Source: a virus. Taken from it: a stretch of 22,373 nt of DNA. Below are positions 1 to 22,373 of the stretch, in pieces; the first letter of the stretch is position 1, and each line of letters opens with the position of its first letter. The notes below the pieces were generated by a model. The model saw nothing but the letters and a program-made list of their open reading frames with translations, was not told the DNA's origin and did not search any database. A program made the position numbers and the translations under genes. The stretch is taken from IMG/VR virus record IMGVR_UViG_3300010885_004823, positions 1 to 22,373 of that record, one strand, 5' to 3'.

Positions 1-3000
1 AGCGCTGATGTGGCTGAGCAGCCCGATACAGGACTCACCCCCGGAGGAGTTGCTGAGCCTGACGCACGTGGAGTGGTTCCTGCTGGACAGGATGTTGCAA
101 GCGCTGATGTCGGAGAAGGAGTCAAGCCCGCTGCACTGACAGAAACACCACCTACGGAAACAAAACCTACGCTAGAAGAACAGATTAAGGCGGATGAGGA
201 AAGACAGGCTGCATACGATGTTAAGAAAGCTAAAGTTGAAAGTATTGCCCGTTTAAATGCAAGCGCTGCGTTTGACCAAGCGGGTGACTACACTAACCTT
301 CAAGAAGCAATTGATTCCTATGAGATAAACATGGGGGATACATTGGTAGAAGAAGGATTTAAAAATGACCCTGACTATGACGCCCTAGTTAGAACGGCTA
401 GCCGTGCATTTGATGATGAAATTAGCAAACTAAAAGGAACCACAACCGATGGCACTACGCCCACTGAAACCATCAAAGCAGAAGAAAAAAGACAAGAAGA
501 ACAACCGCCACCAGCAGCCGGAGCAGTAGTCCCCGGTAAACGTCTCGGTCGGCCACCTGTCCAGCAACGGCATACGTTTTCAGAAAATACGGCGGGTGGG
601 TTTGACCACGTTACGGATAACGAAGTAACTGCAACGTACGCGAATAAAAAGCAAGCTACTGCGGCTGTCAATCTGGCTAAAGCAAAGGACAAGGGTGACG
701 CTGCTCTGATTGCTACAAATCAAGCCAAGTTAGATGCTGCGCTTGCCTCAAAAGGTAAAGGCCGACCACCTAAACCCCCGGCAGTAGATGGTACTGTTGA
801 GCTAGACGGAGAAACGCGCCAAGAGATGGAAGCGCTGGAGTCGGCACTTAAAACGTACAACTTACCCGCAAGTGGGAATAGCGTAGCCAATGCAGCAATG
901 TATATCAGCGATGCAGCGGTTGACCCAACCGTACCCAAGGCAGTGCGCGAACGTGCGCAGCAAATGCTTAAAGATGATGTTTCTACTAAAGACATCCCTA
1001 AGAAGATAAAGTCTACTGACGGCAACGTGGGCAAAGGTGACACTGGGTTTAACTCCGCTGCAAATGGTGCGCAAGCAATAACTCGTGTTATTAAAACAGG
1101 CAATGCGTTCCAACGTTTTGTGGCCGAGCGCATCCGCAACTTCTTGTCTGGCGTTAAGTTTGTAGTTCTGGAAAAGGGTGACACCATACCCGATGGGATG
1201 GAAGATGCACGCGGTTTGTTTGTTTACGACCCCAAAACAAAAGAACGTACCGTATACGTGCGTGGTGCTAGCTTTGGTGGCATGCAGGGCATCAACAACA
1301 TTACAGTGCTGCACGAAATGCTGCACGCAGCAACGACTAACCGTATTACCGCAGGTCTATTGAAGGGGTTCAGGAACGCTCAGCTTCAAAAGTTTGTCCG
1401 TGAGATGAGCGACATAATGAAGCGTGCAGAGCAAGAGTACAAAAGCTCAACGTACCTTGACATGGTTGACGAAGGCGTTAACGAGGTTGTCAGTAGAACC
1501 TACGACCCTAAAACGGATAGCTACGACATCTTCACGTCTCCGTATGAGTTCTTGGCTTACGGTATGTCTAGCCCTGAGTTCCAAAAGTTCTTGATGGGCG
1601 TAAAGGGCGTGCGCAAAGAGCCAACCCTCTTCTCTGCATTTGCTAATAGCATCCGTGACCTGTTTGGTATCAAGCAGGGCGAGTCCACTGCATTCTCCGA
1701 TCTGGTAGATATCACTGACAAGATGCTCGGTACTCGGGTTACACCAACCACCGCGCAGAGCAAAATATCTTTACAAGAAAAAGCCCCGCTTACCGACGCA
1801 GAGAAACAAAAAGAATTAGATCGTGCTGTAGCTCAAGCTACTAAGAAAGTAGCCACCTCAAGGGATGGCTACGAACTAGGAAACGCTGTAGCAGACTTGG
1901 CGAAATGGCGCGATCCTCGTTACTTGTGGGGGGAAATTAAAGGCGTCTACGATGCGGCTACTAATCCCGTGCGGTCAGCCATATCTAATTTTTACGATAG
2001 CGAAGCGCTTGCTTATGCTGGCCCCGGCGACATCATTACTGGGCTTAAAGACGCGCACGAAGCAATACAAAAAATGGCTAGCTCTACGCAAACATACATG
2101 CGTGGTGTTGCTGATCTGTCTTTGGATGTTGCTAAGTTTTTTAGGGGGCATCCAGAACTCCGTCAGCCGTTTGAAGATTTAATTAACGCTACTACGCTTG
2201 CTAAGTACGACCCATCGGATAAAAAAGCTACGATTCGTAGTAAGCAACTAGATGCTGATTACGAAGCACTCGGCAAAGAAGGACAAAAAACTTACCAGCA
2301 AGCGCGTGACTACTACAAAGCAATGAACGCCGTTAAGCAGCAGTTGCTTGAAGAAAATCTTGAAAAACTAGACCTAGACCCCGAGGCCCGTAAAAAGTTA
2401 TTGGCGGATGTCCGTCTAATTTTTGAGCAAGACAAAATAGAACCGTATTTTCCGCTGGCTCGTTTTGGTGATTTTGTTTTAGAGGTGGGGGCTGGTAAAT
2501 CGCGTGCTTCGTACCGTTTTGAAACAATGAAACAACGTGATCGTGCGGCTAGAGAATACGCAGCAAAACGGGGTAAAACTATTGACGAGCTTCGTCAAGA
2601 TGAAGAGCTAAAGACATCGGAAGATTCAAGCGGGTCAACACTGCGCTCAACCATTGAAGGTACAAGTAAGCTATTAAAAGCTACTTATGACGCAATTGAG
2701 TCGGCAAATATGGCCGATTCTCAAGCCAAACAAAACTTAAAAGATACTTTGTATCAAGCGTACCTAGCTGCAATGCCCGAGAACAGCGTGCGCAAAATGT
2801 TTATGCACCGCAAAGGTACGCCCGGATTTAGTTCTGACATCCTCAGAACAATCAATACCACCGGGCTCAAAATGTCCAGTGCGCTTGCAAAACTTGAACA
2901 CTCTGGTGACATCCGACGTGCCTTGGAACTAGCAAACCGGGAACTTAACAGGGGCAATGATAAGTACAAACCATTTGTTAAGCGCATGGAAGAGTTGGCG

Positions 3001-4785
3001 GCGGACGCTATACAACCAAAAATTCAAACTGATGCAGCAAGATGGTTTGATACTGGTATAGGGTTTCTTGCTAAAGTTTCTTTTTTAAAGAACTTAACAA
3101 GCTGGTCTTCGGCAATGCTTCAGCCAGTGGATATTATTATGGTTGGCGCTCCTGTACTTACGGGCAACCATGGGCCTAAAGCTGCGGTAGCGTTGGCTAA
3201 CCGCTTAAACTTAGTAAGTCAATACGGAATAGTTGAGACCAGACCAGACGGCTCAAAACGTTATCGTGCACCTAGTATTGAATACGCTAAAGGGATTACT
3301 CCGCTGCAACGTCAAGCACTTCGGGATATGGTCGATGTCTATGGCGTCACAAAAAATACTCTGTCTAACGAAGTATTCAGTCGTGCGGGGAAACCAACTG
3401 CTAAGGTTAACGGCAAAGCCTATGGCCTCGGCAAAAATGCTGTAGATACGTTAATACTTGGTGGGCTCATGCACCACGGTGAACGCTTGTCCCGCGAAGT
3501 TATGGCTTTGACCTCGTTCGATCTTTACATGGCGGAGTTGGAAAAAGCTCGCCCTAAAGACCCGATGAACTTTCATGAGGCAGTAAAACTTGCCGTACGT
3601 GAAACGCATGAAGCATTAGGTAATTACGACCCAAGTAACAGACCTCTGATTATGCGTGGGGGTATTGGTAAGCTTGTCACTATGTACAAGTTTTTCCCGC
3701 TGGTACGTACTAAGCTACTGGGCATCAACTTTTTTAAGATGCTTCCGTTGTTTAACAAAGAGGGCAAGAAAGCAGCGGCTACTAAATTCTTCGGTATTCT
3801 TGGTACGCATCTTTTGCTTGGCGGCTACACTGCGCTCCCAATGTTTAGTCTGGCGCTGAGCGTACTTGGCTATATCTGGAAAAAATGGCAGAAAGACCCA
3901 GATGCGCCGGATGATATGAGGAGTGTTAAGTACGAAACTTGGTTTCGCACCGAATATTTACCCAATGAAATTGGTAGGCTTAAAGCCAAATATGAATTTT
4001 TGCCAAAAGAATCTGCACGCCTTGCAGAGTATGGTTTGCTCAACTACTTTACAGGGATGAACGTTTCAGGCCGTATTACAATGAACGACATGTGGTTCCG
4101 TGACCCACAACCGGGCAACACAATTAAAGAAACGTTTTTAAATTGGGGGCAAGTACTTGGTGGCCCTGTTGCATCTAACATACTTGCAACTGCGGAAGGT
4201 TTCCAGTTAATGTCGCAAGGTGAGTGGGAACGCGGCCTTGAAAAAGCTATCCCGCTTGGCTCGATTGCTAAACTCTTAACTGCTAAACGCTACGCAGAAG
4301 AGGGTGTTCAAACATCTCAGGGCGTACAGCTAGTACCAAAAGGCAAAGTACCTACAAGTGAACTAGTGGGGCAAGCGATTGGTTTTACCCCTGCCCGTAT
4401 TGCTGAAGCGCAAGATAAAGCGTTTGCAGCCACTGTTGCTGAAAAAGATTTGGCTGTAGAGCGTACAAAAATTGTGCATACGCTGGTAGATTCGTTCCGT
4501 AAGTCTATTGACCCGAGTAGGCCATTAGACCAAAACGAACGTTTCGACAAAATATTTAACGAAGCACTACTCAAGATGGTTGATTTCAACATACGCAACC
4601 CTAACAGGCCGATTGAGGATGAAGAAGTAGGCTCGTTGATAAACGCAACTATGAAGAAAATTGCCGAGACAGAAATGGGCAGTGGGGTTAGGGTGACCAA
4701 TAAAAACTTAGAGTTGGTAACTCCTTCCTCAGATGCTGCACTGGAAGCGTTAACTCCCTACCTCAAAGAAAAAAACCCCCGGTGA
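1..4785 (+). CDS. Giant virion/ejection-type protein with HEMLH metallopeptidase motif (5' end outside window)
   Basis: The frame is open from base 1, so the gene probably begins left of the window; at least 1591 residues are visible, counting from the GTG at 10. The N-terminal ~260 residues are Ala/Pro/Thr/Glu-rich and low in complexity, with two AT-hook-like GRPP patches (residues 176-183 and 248-257). Residues 435-439 are HEMLH, the zinc-binding HExxH of zincin peptidases, followed by a region like the metallopeptidase segments found in giant phage proteins. A long helical, charged middle part follows. Residues about 1257-1293 are strongly hydrophobic (FFGILGTHLLLGG and onward) and could enter a membrane. 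Size, mosaic build and strand suggest an internal virion protein ejected with the DNA, or a polyvalent multidomain protein. It is the only + strand gene here and faces the replication operon. Peptidase activity and virion location are inferred; the motif and hydrophobic segment are seen. Confidence 0.8.
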   Translation, partial: SADVAEQPDTGLTPGGVAEPDARGVVPAGQDVASADVGEGVKPAALTETPPTETKPTLEEQIKADEERQAAYDVKKAKVESIARLNASAAFDQAGDYTNLQEAIDSYEINMGDTLVEEGFKNDPDYDALVRTASRAFDDEISKLKGTTTDGTTPTETIKAEEKRQEEQPPPAAGAVVPGKRLGRPPVQQRHTFSENTAGGFDHVTDNEVTATYANKKQATAAVNLAKAKDKGDAALIATNQAKLDAALASKGKGRPPKPPAVDGTVELDGETRQEMEALESALKTYNLPASGNSVANAAMYISDAAVDPTVPKAVRERAQQMLKDDVSTKDIPKKIKSTDGNVGKGDTGFNSAANGAQAITRVIKTGNAFQRFVAERIRNFLSGVKFVVLEKGDTIPDGMEDARGLFVYDPKTKERTVYVRGASFGGMQGINNITVLHEMLHAATTNRITAGLLKGFRNAQLQKFVREMSDIMKRAEQEYKSSTYLDMVDEGVNEVVSRTYDPKTDSYDIFTSPYEFLAYGMSSPEFQKFLMGVKGVRKEPTLFSAFANSIRDLFGIKQGESTAFSDLVDITDKMLGTRVTPTTAQSKISLQEKAPLTDAEKQKELDRAVAQATKKVATSRDGYELGNAVADLAKWRDPRYLWGEIKGVYDAATNPVRSAISNFYDSEALAYAGPGDIITGLKDAHEAIQKMASSTQTYMRGVADLSLDVAKFFRGHPELRQPFEDLINATTLAKYDPSDKKATIRSKQLDADYEALGKEGQKTYQQARDYYKAMNAVKQQLLEENLEKLDLDPEARKKLLADVRLIFEQDKIEPYFPLARFGDFVLEVGAGKSRASYRFETMKQRDRAAREYAAKRGKTIDELRQDEELKTSEDSSGSTLRSTIEGTSKLLKATYDAIESANMADSQAKQNLKDTLYQAYLAAMPENSVRKMFMHRKGTPGFSSDILRTINTTGLKMSSALAKLEHSGDIRRALELANRELNRGNDKYKPFVKRMEELAADAIQPKIQTDAARWFDTGIGFLAKVSFLKNLTSWSSAMLQPVDIIMVGAPVLTGNHGPKAAVALANRLNLVSQYGIVETRPDGSKRYRAPSIEYAKGITPLQRQALRDMVDVYGVTKNTLSNEVFSRAGKPTAKVNGKAYGLGKNAVDTLILGGLMHHGERLSREVMALTSFDLYMAELEKARPKDPMNFHEAVKLAVRETHEALGNYDPSNRPLIMRGGIGKLVTMYKFFPLVRTKLLGINFFKMLPLFNKEGKKAAATKFFGILGTHLLLGGYTALPMFSLALSVLGYIWKKWQKDPDAPDDMRSVKYETWFRTEYLPNEIGRLKAKYEFLPKESARLAEYGLLNYFTGMNVSGRITMNDMWFRDPQPGNTIKETFLNWGQVLGGPVASNILATAEGFQLMSQGEWERGLEKAIPLGSIAKLLTAKRYAEEGVQTSQGVQLVPKGKVPTSELVGQAIGFTPARIAEAQDKAFAATVAEKDLAVERTKIVHTLVDSFRKSIDPSRPLDQNERFDKIFNEALLKMVDFNIRNPNRPIEDEEVGSLINATMKKIAETEMGSGVRVTNKNLELVTPSSDAALEALTPYLKEKNPR

Positions 4786-14789: not shown

Positions 14790-15269
14790 TCATACCTTCT
14801 TCGGTTTAATTGCTCTCATACGTTTCTGTTTAAAGTCCTCAATGACTAGCTTGAATGCAGCGCCCATATCTTTCACAGTGATGACCTCAAGCTGCGCATC
14901 GTGTAGCTCCATCACCACATTGAGTGCGTCCATCTCCGATGCCTTGAGCACAAACCGACCTGACTCCGCACCGCGTACACCTACCTCGTACAGCGCATCC
15001 AGCCCAGCGCGTACCTCTGGGAAGTAGTCACGCCCAAAGCCTAAGCGGTACAACGCTTCAACAATGTTGACTGCCTGTATCAGCGCATCGATGTCCTTGC
15101 GGGTAGCAACGCCTCGGGTCAACGCAGTCAACGCATCGTGGTTCTTGATCTTCAGGTCAACCAAGAAACTGTCGTGCTGCGCCACCGGGGTGATACTCTC
15201 CAGTACGTAAGCTAGCGGGTTCTGTAGCACGGGCTTTGGCCTGTACTTGCTACGTTTGCGCATCAGCAT
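14790..15269 (-). CDS. Hypothetical phage protein, 159 aa, directly after the polymerase
   Basis: The basic N-terminus RKRSKYRPKPVLQNPLAYVL is followed by an all-helical body (KNHDALTALTRGVA, DIDALIQAVNIVEALYRLG). Similar 'RKRSKYRPK..' proteins are, as far as I know, widespread in Burkholderiales phages without assigned function. Two starts are possible: ATG at 15269, overlapping the polymerase end by 7 bases, or ATG at 15263, sharing TGATG with the polymerase stop. The second gives 157 residues beginning MRKRSKY and is equally credible. No catalytic or membrane features are seen. Confidence 0.78.
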   Translation of the reverse strand: MLMRKRSKYRPKPVLQNPLAYVLESITPVAQHDSFLVDLKIKNHDALTALTRGVATRKDIDALIQAVNIVEALYRLGFGRDYFPEVRAGLDALYEVGVRGAESGRFVLKASEMDALNVVMELHDAQLEVITVKDMGAAFKLVIEDFKQKRMRAIKPKKV

Positions 15270-17929
15270 GCTCCGTAGTTGCTACCGTACCCAGCCTCGC
15301 AGTTCAAGGGCAACTCCATGCCCCAATCTGGCCGTGTACGCATGCACATTTCAACGTATTCTTTAGCGGTCTCAACCTGTTCAGTCGGTACGATACAAGC
15401 AATTGCGTCATGCACGGTCATGACCACTCTGTATTTCTTGGCAACCATAAGCATCTGCTCACCGATCACAATCCGAGCCAAGGCTTGACACACGTTCTCA
15501 ATGACTTTGCCACCGTAGATGCGTGTCGGAATGACTGCCTTACCCTTCTTCGTGTCGTACACAAGCTCAATTTCACCGTCATCGTCTTGGAGCTTACGCA
15601 AGTTGGGGTAACGCAGGTACAAACCATTGGGGAGCAAAACACCGCCGCTACCTTCAATCTTTAAGACATCGCCCCGGCCCAACGTTGTCTGCTGGTTCTG
15701 GAGTATGGCCTTGAGTGCTGACGCGGCAGACTTCCAGAGTTCAACAATCTTCGGGTACGTTGCGCGGTACGTGTCGATGATGCGCTTGGCCTCGTCAAGT
15801 TCAATCCCCACATTAAAGTTCTTAAGTTGTGCCTGAAACTTTGCTGCGCCCATACCGTAGCCGCAGTTATGGACAATCATCGGCCCCTGTGCTGTTAAGA
15901 CCGTGTAACGATTTTTCGGCCCTGCGTAAGCGAGATCGTAAGTTTGCAATTTCCGACTCAAGGGTTGCAACTTTTCGTTTGTTTTTAAGGTTGGCGCTCC
16001 GGGATACAAATTGGATGTTGTCGGGCTCATAATTTCCGTTAACATCAATCCTATCCATTTCAAAACTTGGAACATCCCACCCCTTAAGCGTTTGTGCATA
16101 CTGAAGAAACGAGGCTCGGTTCTCCCGCCATTGCTTGTGTACTGATATACCGCGCCCCCCGTAGTGCAAATATGCTCTGTTAGTTGCAGTGTGGCACCGA
16201 CCAATCGCGGAGGACAACCGATTGAGTAAGCGTTCCCTATGTTCGTCGTTAGGCAGTACCTCGGCGTAACCCCAATATAGCTTGCGAGTTTTTGCAGCCG
16301 ATTTTTTAGCGCAAATATCGCATCTTGTACTTTTAAAGTTCTTAAAGTTTTGATGGTCAACGGTGTACTCTGGTAGTCCGCAATCGCATTGGACAATGAG
16401 TGCGCGTACCCCCCGTCTTTCCCCGGCGAGATAGCCTGTAACGGTAAGTTTTCCGCTCCTGTACCCAATGCTTGGCAAAGGGTATTTGCGTCGGCTACCA
16501 CTGATTGCGCTTCCAACCATTGCGTCCCGCACAATACTTTGTGATCTGGCGTCAACCAGAGCCCTAAGAGACTCAGCGTTTCTTTCTCGCCTTTCGGCAC
16601 TAATCCTTGATGGCATACCCATTCCTCCCCATCCCAAAGTTTGTCTTCCGAGGTTACCTGTTCGATAGGCTTCCATCCTGAGCCACATAGTACCATAGAC
16701 CCAGCACCAATGCAACCTAAAATTGTTGTCTTACCTACGAATCTCTCGTCCTTTGTAATCTGCAATACGTCCTTGCCATAGATAGCCGATGCCATGATTT
16801 TGTAAACGTCCTCGCCCCGATCAAATGCGTCTACCAGATCATTCTGTTCTGCAAGCCATGCCAGCGTACGCGCTTCAATCTGTGATGAGTCCGAGTCAAT
16901 CATCATGTAGCCGTCCGGTGCTTCGATAGACTTCTTCAGCGGAGATGTGCGTTGCAAGTTCTGCAAGTTAATCTTGTCGTCACCGCCCCAGCGTCCAGTG
17001 TGTGCGGCGTAGTAGCGTAGGGGTACAGGCATTGGGCCTCGTGAAGCAATCCCAATGAACCTCTCAGTCCTCGTCTCTTCAATGGTTGACTTAGTTCCCA
17101 ACCGTGCCGCAACCAATACTTGCACATTTGCATTCTCATGCTCCAGTAGGGCTTTGAACGCTTCATCCGTCTTAGAGAATGCGTAAGTCTGCTTGCCGTT
17201 GGTAGGGCTCTTCTTCATCGGCGGCACAACATTTAGATCGCGGAGTAAGTCGGCAAACTTAGGGTTACTCATCAAGGTGTCTTTGTCGAAGTTGCTCAAT
17301 ATCTCTGTTTTGCGCATCCTCTCTAACTCAAGATGCAGGTCTAACATCCCCTTGTCCAACTGCAATACTGGCTCGGTGAACATACGCACGGTCAAGTCGA
17401 TCAGGCGCAGTTCAATCTTTGGGAAGCCCTTGCTCATTTGCCCAAACAAATCCCACGTAAGGGCAACGTCATTCTTGCAATACTCACCGTACCGTGCTAA
17501 CTGCTCGGGGCTGAAGTCGGTGCGGTGCAGACCCAAGGCGTTCTCGACCTCTGTGCCTTTCTCGCCAAGACCGTAATGTTGAGCCAAGACTTTTAAACTT
17601 CCGCCTACTTCAGTACCGTGTAGCGCCCTACCCATGGACAATGTATCAAGCCAGCCTTTGGGCCTGAGTCCGAATACCCAGTTCAAAATTGCACCGTCGA
17701 ACGGGGCGTTGTGCGCGAGGGCCAAAGAGTTCGCCCAATCAAACTGACTGAGGAACTGGTGCATGGCTTCAGCATCGCCACTGAACCACTGGGGCTCACC
17801 ATCGTCTACCTGTACCGCAGCACCGATAACCTCAAACTGGGGGCTACGAATGTATTCCTCCGTGGTAACTTTCGTTAATGAAAACTCCCGAGAATAAAAA
17901 GACTCAAAATCAATCGTCAGGATTTTCAT
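15263..17929 (-). CDS. Family A DNA polymerase with 3'-5' exonuclease, interrupted by an intein
   Basis: The replicative polymerase of the phage. The precursor is 888 residues; removing the intein (406-688) leaves 605. Exonuclease motifs: TIDFES (D7, E9), AHNAPFD (73-78) and YCKND (150-154). Polymerase motifs: HTGRWGG with INLQNLQR (~310-327), motif A DSDSSQIEAR (D345), motif B from R396 through K400-TTILG, resuming after the intein as CGYGMG, and motif C VHDAI (H840-D841). All catalytic residues are present; there is no 5'-3' exonuclease domain, as usual for phage enzymes. The start overlaps the upstream gene (ATGA, 17926-17929). The intein splits the O-helix, so unspliced protein should be inactive and splicing is required for replication. 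Confidence 0.95.
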   Translation of the reverse strand: MKILTIDFESFYSREFSLTKVTTEEYIRSPQFEVIGAAVQVDDGEPQWFSGDAEAMHQFLSQFDWANSLALAHNAPFDGAILNWVFGLRPKGWLDTLSMGRALHGTEVGGSLKVLAQHYGLGEKGTEVENALGLHRTDFSPEQLARYGEYCKNDVALTWDLFGQMSKGFPKIELRLIDLTVRMFTEPVLQLDKGMLDLHLELERMRKTEILSNFDKDTLMSNPKFADLLRDLNVVPPMKKSPTNGKQTYAFSKTDEAFKALLEHENANVQVLVAARLGTKSTIEETRTERFIGIASRGPMPVPLRYYAAHTGRWGGDDKINLQNLQRTSPLKKSIEAPDGYMMIDSDSSQIEARTLAWLAEQNDLVDAFDRGEDVYKIMASAIYGKDVLQITKDERFVGKTTILGCIGAGSMVLCGSGWKPIEQVTSEDKLWDGEEWVCHQGLVPKGEKETLSLLGLWLTPDHKVLCGTQWLEAQSVVADANTLCQALGTGAENLPLQAISPGKDGGYAHSLSNAIADYQSTPLTIKTLRTLKVQDAIFALKNRLQKLASYIGVTPRYCLTTNIGNAYSIGCPPRLVGATLQLTEHICTTGGAVYQYTSNGGRTEPRFFSMHKRLRGGMFQVLKWIGLMLTEIMSPTTSNLYPGAPTLKTNEKLQPLSRKLQTYDLAYAGPKNRYTVLTAQGPMIVHNCGYGMGAAKFQAQLKNFNVGIELDEAKRIIDTYRATYPKIVELWKSAASALKAILQNQQTTLGRGDVLKIEGSGGVLLPNGLYLRYPNLRKLQDDDGEIELVYDTKKGKAVIPTRIYGGKVIENVCQALARIVIGEQMLMVAKKYRVVMTVHDAIACIVPTEQVETAKEYVEMCMRTRPDWGMELPLNCEAGYGSNYGAC
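15867..16616 (-). CDS. HNH homing endonuclease nested out of frame inside the intein, 249 aa
   Basis: Frame -1 (+2) relative to the polymerase. It starts at ATG 16616 (MPSRISAERR), with GGAGG 7 bases upstream; an ATG at 16622 and a TTG at 16715 are less likely. A Cys4 zinc ribbon (C77, C79, C99, C102) precedes the HNH core: HYGGRGISV (151-159), W163, MDRID (187-191), GNYEPDNI (194-201) and KNKRK (211-215). This is the arrangement of freestanding phage homing endonucleases ('YGGRGI..W...F...LdRiD..GnY.p.N..w'). A C-terminal charged helix follows. The TAA stop (15869-15867) is made by the intein's last His-Asn codons CAT AAC. It probably cuts intein-free polymerase genes and so spreads the intein. 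Nearly all its codons also code for intein. Confidence 0.88.
   Translation of the reverse strand: MPSRISAERRERNAESLRALVDARSQSIVRDAMVGSAISGSRRKYPLPSIGYRSGKLTVTGYLAGERRGVRALIVQCDCGLPEYTVDHQNFKNFKSTRCDICAKKSAAKTRKLYWGYAEVLPNDEHRERLLNRLSSAIGRCHTATNRAYLHYGGRGISVHKQWRENRASFLQYAQTLKGWDVPSFEMDRIDVNGNYEPDNIQFVSRSANLKNKRKVATLESEIANLRSRLRRAEKSLHGLNSTGADDCP
16623..16630 (-). promoter_or_regulatory. Internal Shine-Dalgarno of the nested HNH gene
   Basis: GGGGAGGA on the minus strand, 7 bases before ATG 16616. In the intein frame these bases encode the end of WDGEE just after block A. It decides the start of the nested gene. Confidence 0.75.
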
Positions 17930-18351
17930 TTGTTGTGCATGGCCTCGTAGTAGGAGTTCTTCTGCTTTAGGTTGCTGCCATACTGCTGGGCTAGGGAGTT
18001 TTGATACTGTTGGATTTGCGCTTGTACTTGCGCTTGCAGCGGATTCGTAGCCGTGTTTTCGAGGATGCTGCCGTTGGGGGCGTTGCCATACGTGTAGTCC
18101 TCGGAGCCTGTCATCGGGTTAAGCACTTGCGCGGTAATGCTGTCGAGTCGCGCACGGCGCTCTTCGCCCTTCTTAACCTTAGCCCATTCTTTTGCCAGCA
18201 CCTTGCGTTCAATCCGGGTGAAGCCGTCTCGGGCTGTCACTAGGTTTCTCCATACGCTATGGTGGGTAAAGTCCTCTGGTCGCTCACGCAGTCGTGTAAT
18301 CAACATGCGCACTTCGGGTGCGCATAGATGTATAAGTACTTTCTCAATCAT
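17926..18351 (-). CDS. Hypothetical phage protein, 141 aa, upstream of the polymerase
   Basis: The N-terminal half is basic and helical (LITRLRERPEDF, FTRIERKVLAKEWAKVKKG). The C-terminal third is Gln/Asn-rich and probably disordered (QAQVQAQIQQYQNSLAQQYG). No family is recognised. It is bracketed by ATGA overlaps: its start with the VRR-NUC gene stop (18351-18348) and its stop with the polymerase start. The tight coupling suggests equimolar production with the polymerase; a small processivity or tethering role is conceivable but unproven. Confidence 0.78.
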   Translation of the reverse strand: MIEKVLIHLCAPEVRMLITRLRERPEDFTHHSVWRNLVTARDGFTRIERKVLAKEWAKVKKGEERRARLDSITAQVLNPMTGSEDYTYGNAPNGSILENTATNPLQAQVQAQIQQYQNSLAQQYGSNLKQKNSYYEAMHNK

Positions 18352-18644
18352 TTCATAAACTCCAATATAGATGCTTCTAAAGTGTCAAGCTCGTTCTCGT
18401 TCACGACCCATGCGTAGCCCCCGCACTCGTGGATTTGTCTGAGATTCTTTTCTTGCAGCGCGGTAGTCTTACCCTTCCCCGCCTTGGCTTCGATAGCCAA
18501 GAACTTGCCGTTTACGCAGCACAGGAAGTCGGGTACACCGCTATTACCGTAGCCAGTACCAATAGGCATAGCGTAGTAGATGTTGTGGGCTTTCAAGATT
18601 GCTTTAATCTTGGCCTTGACTTTCGATTCAGGCGTGGTCGCCAT
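18348..18644 (-). CDS. VRR-NUC domain nuclease, 98 aa
   Basis: A minimal VRR-NUC enzyme, the PD-(D/E)XK-type fold found in phages and in FAN1. Visible active-site elements are E6 in the first helix, GVPDFL (D39), AIEAKAG (E52, K54) and TALQ (Q64), followed by NLRQIHECGGYAWVV. The length of about 100 residues is normal for standalone phage VRR-NUC proteins, which are thought to be structure-specific (Holliday-junction-like) nucleases. It is the first gene after the promoter at 18673-18700, with a leader of ~22 bases and GGAG 6 bases before ATG. Confidence 0.93.
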   Translation of the reverse strand: MATTPESKVKAKIKAILKAHNIYYAMPIGTGYGNSGVPDFLCCVNGKFLAIEAKAGKGKTTALQEKNLRQIHECGGYAWVVNENELDTLEASILEFMK

Positions 18645-21646: not shown

Positions 21647-22373
21647 TTAATCCTTGACGCGAATCGTTTTGCCATTGCCTGCAACACAATCGTTTCCTCC
21701 TACGATAGCCCACAGTACGGGCGCAGTCCAATCGGAACCCCAATCGCCACCCACGAATCCATCGGTCAATACGATGATGCACTCAGGCTCAATGCGCTTG
21801 TCTTTCAAGTACGCTGATATGCAAGACGGGCTCGTACCCCCACCACCCTTGGGCTTGGTAGAGTTGATGATGTTGGATACATCGTTCTCGGTGTACTCCT
21901 CATGCGCAGCCACCCGGCTGTCCCAATAGATCAAGTCCACTTGGCTCGGCTTTACTTCTTCTGCGATACCCTTAACCTCGGAAAGTATTTCTTCCAGCGC
22001 ATCAAACACCGAACCCGATGCGTCAACGGCAATCACCATGCGGCCAACTCTTTCTCCAATGAGACTCGGCATGTAAACGCCTGTACTCAGGAACCTACGG
22101 TTCACCCTACGCCACGAGGACGTATCCTTTGCACTGCATGTAGACTTTACGAACTCACGCAGCATCTCGCGCCAGTTGACCTTGGGCTCAAGCAAGTCAA
22201 GCAAGTCACGGTCAAGCCCACCACCACCAGCACCCGCAATCTTCTGGTGCGCCATTACCCCTTGGCGAATAGCTTGGTCGATGTCGCGCTCAAGTTCTTT
22301 CTTGTCAGCCTCGGTCATCTCTTTGGCCCCGGCCCAGTCGTGGTCATCAAAGCCTGTACCTTCGCCCGTACCT
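21647..22373 (-). CDS. VWA-domain protein (DUF2201/VWA-like type), N-terminus outside window
   Basis: The frame stays open to the right edge, and the residues before the first ATG (22318) read GTGEGTGFDDHDWAG, a Gly/Asp-rich linker typical of this family, so the gene is cut by the window. The visible part has a metal-ion-dependent adhesion site: VDASGSV (DxSxS), GGGGTSP (Thr) and LTDGFVGG (Asp), all intact. VWA proteins of this kind act with MoxR-type AAA ATPases as chaperone-like or metal-insertion modules; the DUF3150-like gene two genes downstream is the usual companion. A MoxR-type ATPase is expected beyond the right edge. The target in the phage is unknown. Confidence 0.9.
   Translation of the reverse strand, partial: GTGEGTGFDDHDWAGAKEMTEADKKELERDIDQAIRQGVMAHQKIAGAGGGGLDRDLLDLLEPKVNWREMLREFVKSTCSAKDTSSWRRVNRRFLSTGVYMPSLIGERVGRMVIAVDASGSVFDALEEILSEVKGIAEEVKPSQVDLIYWDSRVAAHEEYTENDVSNIINSTKPKGGGGTSPSCISAYLKDKRIEPECIIVLTDGFVGGDWGSDWTAPVLWAIVGGNDCVAGNGKTIRVKD

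Follow-up and report, generated by a model that had tools for sequence, protein, structure and literature searches.

A probable dual-coding homing intein in a viral DNA polymerase gene, and relatives with out-of-frame HNH genes

How an intein might carry a homing endonuclease when its splicing frame contains none is the question raised by the DNA polymerase gene on the stretch of viral DNA analyzed here (IMG/VR record IMGVR_UViG_3300010885_004823, 22,373 nucleotides; referred to below as the window). The original prediction, made from the letters of the sequence, held that the -1 frame of the intein DNA encodes a complete HNH enzyme. We consider the element to be very probably a dual-coding homing intein, the endonuclease of which is translated separately.

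The intein and the overlapping HNH gene

The host gene (minus strand, 15263 to 17929) encodes a family A DNA polymerase with 3'-5' exonuclease (PolA; Pfam DNA_pol_A, 2e-29, and PHROGs) and is read from 17929 to 15263 as a single uninterrupted frame of 888 amino acids. Within it, the intein frame occupies 283 codons (849 bp, 15866 to 16714, minus strand), from Cys1 to His-Asn, between an N-extein (16715 to 17929) and a C-extein (15263 to 15865), both on the same strand. The insertion point lies between KTTILG and CGYGMG, in a conserved PolA motif. The hallmarks of an intein were all located, namely, Cys1, the block B TxxH, the C-terminal His-Asn, and a Cys at +1 directly after it, in agreement with the predicted 849-base open frame with intact splicing motifs. 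Furthermore, residues C1, T55, H58, D260, G277, and H282 are invariant among 56 relatives.

In the AlphaFold model of the intein, residues 1 to 96 and 248 to 282 have pLDDT values near 97, and residues 97 to 247 have values below 50. The two ends are modeled as a HINT fold, and, among solved structures, Foldseek ranks inteins and a Vint domain (probability 1.00) closest to the model. On the minus strand, these parts correspond to an N-terminal splicing half (residues 1 to 96, 16427 to 16714), for which the Foldseek matches are inteins, a middle that is predicted to be disordered (residues 97 to 247, 15974 to 16426), and a C-terminal splicing half delimited by the invariant residues and the model (residues 248 to 283, 15866 to 15973, ending in His-Asn). 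Translation of a precursor with a splicing-competent HINT domain is strongly suggested.

The intein frame was found to lack an endonuclease, and the HNH gene sits in the -1 frame, both as predicted. This gene (minus strand, 15867 to 16616) runs from an ATG at 16616-16614 to a TAA at 15869-15867, encodes 249 amino acids, and matches the HNH endonuclease family phrog_374 in PHROGs (1e-32). Its core (residues 48 to 215, 15972 to 16475, minus strand), most of which is encoded by the intein middle, contains the zinc ligands Cys77/79/99/102 and the motifs YGGRGI, MDRID, and GNYEPDN; residues C77, C79, C99, C102, D188, R189, N200, and N209, covering zinc binding and a putative active site, are invariant. 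The HNH model has a mean pLDDT of 86.7, with the core near 97. The intein middle being predicted to be disordered and the HNH core being modeled confidently, the DNA between the splicing halves folds confidently in the HNH frame only. Sequence and fold searches of the HNH protein against the PDB gave no significant or reliable match; therefore, its assignment rests on PHROGs and motifs. Pfam and NCBIfam searches with the two window proteins returned nothing useful.

The expected translation signals of the HNH gene were also present. A Shine-Dalgarno (SD)-like GGAGG (16624 to 16628, minus strand) lies 7 nt 5' of the ATG. The stop codon TAA (15867 to 15869, minus strand) is spelled by the last two codons of the intein, CAT AAC; CAT contributes its final base and AAC its first two, so the two frames end one base apart.

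Other observations concern the window and the profiles used. The phrog_93 profile (613 positions) matches the intein frame at positions 3 to 307 and a VRR-NUC-like gene of the window (18348 to 18644) at positions 350 to 432, and so seems to combine a comparable intein with a VRR-NUC nuclease. A minus-strand gene at 21647 to 22318 is labeled an HNH endonuclease in PHROGs (phrog_1314); as its sequence contains VIAVDASGSV and LTDGF, which resemble a von Willebrand A-type domain, this label may be wrong. At 10 to 4785, on the plus strand, i.e., opposite to the replication genes, lies the gene of a 1,591-aa DarB-like polyvalent protein with an HExxH-like stretch (HEMLHA).

Relatives in two out-of-frame phases

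When phage records were searched with each frame by tblastn, both frames were located at the same place. The intein frame matched 192 phage records, with at least 80% of its length covered in 166, and the top matches of the HNH frame (Salmonella, Vibrio, and other phages) fall within the polymerase gene. Identity to the window in Ent1, MR14, EBPR siphovirus 2, and Vibrio 97.13 amounts to 28 to 35% for the intein frame and 43 to 48% for the HNH frame, and the two frames have the window's relative phase. Overall, the layout was found in isolates of Jerseyvirus, Kagunavirus, and Dhillonvirus and in Pseudomonas MR14, Vibrio 97.13, and EBPR siphovirus 2.

IMG/VR contigs were surveyed, and their loci were sorted with splicing-block and HNH profiles. 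The HNH had the same phase as in the window in 123 entries (class one) and, among those in which the intein end was located, the other out-of-frame phase in 67 (class two), near-copies included in both counts. Further other-phase entries occur among the loci with an intein end that was not located. Removal of near-copies left 83 class one and 49 class two loci. Both frames are open in the same phase in 77 of the 83 nonredundant class one relatives, so the -1 frame is indeed open and conserved. In four others (L046, L055, L056, and L061), the HNH core has been deleted in frame and both splicing halves are kept, L061 also having stops in its HNH frame; in the remaining two (L017 and L082), the HNH frame is otherwise full length but contains stops.

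The converse, an intact HNH with a broken intein frame, was seen in one phage, Salmonella phage SS3e (L167/L113), in the record of which the HNH is annotated as its own coding sequence; the broken frame may reflect an error in the sequencing of this old genome. In the other records inspected, the HNH is missing from the annotation, the polymerase is given, and the intein is given sometimes.

Class two includes the inteins of Streptococcus Javan113, Shewanella SFCi1, Caulobacter RW, and APSE-7, as well as L076, L080, L168 to L171, L213, L236, and about 40 more loci. The host genes of its contig relatives are PolA (two sites), SF2 helicases (Helicase_C), and further genes. In L076 and L080, a single polymerase gene holds one intein of each class. 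Phylogenetic analysis recovered three HNH clades, each well supported, and in one tree part of class two groups among freestanding HNHs. Three independent origins of the out-of-frame HNHs were considered and dropped, as a single clade for all class two HNHs was not rejected (p-AU 0.55).

As large inteins generally contain their endonuclease as an in-frame domain, it is conceivable that a once in-frame HNH domain was shifted out of frame by paired indels. However, no HNH was found in the intein frame at any of about 200 loci of the survey and the relatives (near-copies included), the sole phase-0 reading being the SS3e sequence with its shifted intein frame. The two distinct out-of-frame phases also argue against such a shift, as does the grouping of part of class two among freestanding HNHs, a single class two clade still being compatible with the data. 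We therefore regard paired indels as highly unlikely; more probably, an HNH gene lodged out of frame in a mini-intein.

Conservation of the HNH start suggests that the enzyme is initiated separately. An ATG lies between intein offsets 74 and 125 in 74 of the 77 class one loci with both frames open, and an SD of at least 4 nt is present in 58 of the 77. The GGAGG recurs with identical spacing in L011, L013, L015, L018, L024, L033, L035, and L090; SD strength is not uniform, and in some relatives no SD is recognizable. In class one, the codons of a conserved Glu-Trp pair of the splicing domain (intein offset 90 to 95) spell, if Glu is encoded by GAA, an alternative ATG at offset 92; an intein motif thus supplies part of the HNH start. 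In several divergent class two loci, AAGGAGGT recurs 8 nt 5' of the ATG, 145 nt into the intein. Located around intein offsets 129 to 147, it was observed in L182, L191, L192, L195, L196, L198, L201, and L275, and it seems to coincide with the codons of a conserved intein Glu-Val pair.

Programmed ribosomal frameshifting, which would yield a fusion of the N-terminal intein part and the HNH instead of a free enzyme, could account for the constant offset of the HNH frame from the intein frame within each class. However, class one would need a -1 and class two a +1 shift, and canonical -1 slippery heptamers occur in just 11 of the 77 class one loci, where they are scattered and not conserved. The conserved ATG of class one and the recurrence of AAGGAGGT with its ATG at the same offset in divergent class two loci likewise point to internal initiation, and we consider frameshifting quite improbable.

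Coding constraint on the two frames

The overlap of the two frames is beyond what chance would produce. When synonymous codons of the window HNH were shuffled, a mean of 8.2 stops arose in the intein frame, and shuffling those of the intein gave a mean of 7.5 stops in the HNH frame; none was observed in either. For the relatives, HNH codon shuffles gave 4.9 (class one) and 9.9 (class two) expected stops in the intein frame, and intein codon shuffles gave 7.0 and 6.2, respectively, in the HNH frame. Over all shuffles, 4.9 to 13.5 stops were expected and 0 were observed in 77 plus 47 loci. As these loci had been chosen for an open intein frame, the independent check is a search by the HNH only, with no condition on the intein. 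In that search, all 36 intact loci had 0 stops in the intein frame, and the third frame had 5 to 36.

Freestanding HNH relatives contain stops in their two other frames (medians of 6 and 11), and an open alternative frame was found in only 2 of 74, both with 64 to 68% GC. One further candidate, L159, in which an HNH is accompanied by an open second frame, was rejected as a GC-rich coincidence, its other frame being of low complexity and containing no intein.

Comparison of codon positions revealed coding constraint in both frames. Class one rates were obtained from 12 independent pairs. In the part that encodes the intein only, differences at intein positions 1, 2, and 3 amounted to 0.129, 0.054, and 0.239, respectively. 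In the HNH core, the values for the same positions were 0.060, 0.284, and 0.110, which correspond to 0.110, 0.060, and 0.284 at HNH positions 1, 2, and 3, since intein position 2 is HNH position 3. On the 3' side of the core, intein position 3 is again the fastest (0.234).

Within the class one core, changes that are silent in the HNH and alter the intein occurred at 91.5 per 1,000 opportunities (386/4,217), compared to 21.7 per 1,000 (97/4,461) for changes that are silent in the intein and alter the HNH (Fisher, 6e-48); the latter are thus about 4.5 times rarer. In the N-terminal overlap, both kinds of changes silent in one frame are near 30, versus 139 for doubly silent changes, a contrast that rests on few doubly silent changes (5/36). 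As both kinds are depressed there, both proteins appear to be constrained in this region. Class two shows the same switch in its own phase (57.7 versus 7.2).

These results bear on whether the HNH reading frame could be a relic or result fortuitously from overlapping composition. The HNH-frame stops in L017 and L082 would be in line with a relic. However, purifying selection on the HNH frame is strong among close pairs, and both the codon positions and the shuffles (0 stops versus about 6 to 9 expected) contradict such an explanation, which we consider scarcely credible. Relatives, shuffles, and codon positions instead agree with dual coding, the splicing frame being intact and the HNH gene separate, as originally proposed.

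Homing, comparison with known elements, and implications

Translation of PolA by ribosomes reading its frame would yield a precursor, from which the HINT domain formed by the two ends of the intein would splice the intein out, with the HNH-coding middle looped out of that domain as a disordered linker. Other ribosomes would initiate at the internal GGAGG-ATG in the -1 frame and produce a free HNH endonuclease. In polymerase alleles that have no intein, this enzyme would then cut or nick the DNA in or close to the site of insertion, and the insert would be copied in during repair. We infer the cleavage and repair steps from the HNH family and the distribution of the insert; the HNH might also only bind or nick DNA.

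The distribution of the insert points to a mobile element. When the flanks of the Ent1 insert were joined and used as a query, uninterrupted polymerase genes were found in S111 and S142 (95.6% identity), so that among close Jerseyvirus relatives intein-bearing alleles stand beside empty ones in a clean pattern of presence and absence. Between AG11 (Jerseyvirus) and KMB36 (Kagunavirus), the intein is 97.2% identical and the flanks are 80% identical, a gap of which the reduced freedom of dual-coding DNA may explain part. Homing elements pass through a cycle of invasion, degeneration, and loss, and the empty alleles, the HNH-less derivatives, and the HNH-frame stops, as read from these genomes, fit such a cycle.

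Many phage HNH proteins have roles other than homing, and the HNH could have been conserved for regulation, packaging, or the exclusion of rival phages. However, the architecture accompanies inteins at several insertion sites and in several host genes, the whole unit is cleanly absent from close relatives, and the HNH has been lost while the intein stays, as a homing cycle predicts. A nonhoming function is therefore unlikely, and homing remains the preferred role of the HNH.

The dual-coding inteins resemble canonical large inteins such as PI-SceI in their HINT domain, Cys1, TxxH, His-Asn, and Cys or Ser at +1, and in their location in a conserved motif of a replication gene. In contrast to the in-frame LAGLIDADG or HNH domain of canonical large inteins, they have a separate, overlapping endonuclease gene and a linker that is predicted to be disordered. 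The cyanobacterial GyrB intein is a case of an in-frame HNH domain. In collaborative homing, a freestanding endonuclease adjoins an intron; there, too, a separately translated enzyme may mobilize a splicing element, but in the dual-coding inteins the HNH gene lies inside the element that it would mobilize. Group I introns with an HNH reading frame (I-HmuI; I-PfoP3I in cyanophage PolA, PMC3428280) likewise contain this frame within an element that interrupts a phage gene, and both kinds of elements occur in DNA polymerase genes. However, these introns are spliced as RNA, whereas the inteins would splice as protein, and their HNH gene overlaps a protein frame that must stay open.

The closest published case is the ShiLan domain, or Pacc40 insertion, of mycobacteriophage methylases, which has an out-of-frame HNH and no detectable splicing domains (Arsenault, Gosselin, Gogarten 2025, PMC11855218). 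As in the window, that insertion is open in the host frame with the HNH out of frame, the HNH stop TAA falls within its last bases (TAAC), and a disjunct distribution suggests homing (PMC11855218). Unlike ShiLan, which also has no SD, the inteins described here have a complete HINT domain, a conserved ATG, and often an SD, and their host genes are PolA and helicases instead of methylases. The TAAC end of ShiLan follows the same phase logic as the His-Asn codons of the intein, its last in-frame residue being Asn and the next Ser or Thr; with such an intein-like end, ShiLan may be a decayed dual-coding intein.

The original prediction knew of no described class with this architecture. This appears to hold for a true intein; an out-of-frame HNH in an open host frame had already been published with ShiLan. 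Searching the literature for inteins that contain an endonuclease out of frame recovered the ShiLan study and a genome announcement reporting a methylase of that kind, but nothing else, and priority is uncertain. A 2025 preprint by Gosselin and coworkers reportedly concerns actinobacteriophage inteins with a noncanonical architecture. For overlapping frames in actinobacteriophages, PMC11855218 cites Gorbalenya 1998 ("Non-canonical inteins") and the 2025 preprint (Gosselin et al.).

Overall, it is likely that the intein of the window represents a widespread, essentially unannotated class of dual-coding inteins, which recurs across hundreds of phages in two phases and several host genes and in which both frames are held open for splicing and homing. 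Beside an in-frame domain or none, an overlapping gene would be a third way for an intein to carry an endonuclease. It would also explain why many phage PolA inteins resemble mini-inteins with a meaningless linker, and more than 150 public phage records would each gain a gene that they now lack. The class would further provide a clear test case for overlapping genes in which constraint alternates between two frames over the length of a single DNA segment, and it suggests that the ShiLan insertion be reexamined.
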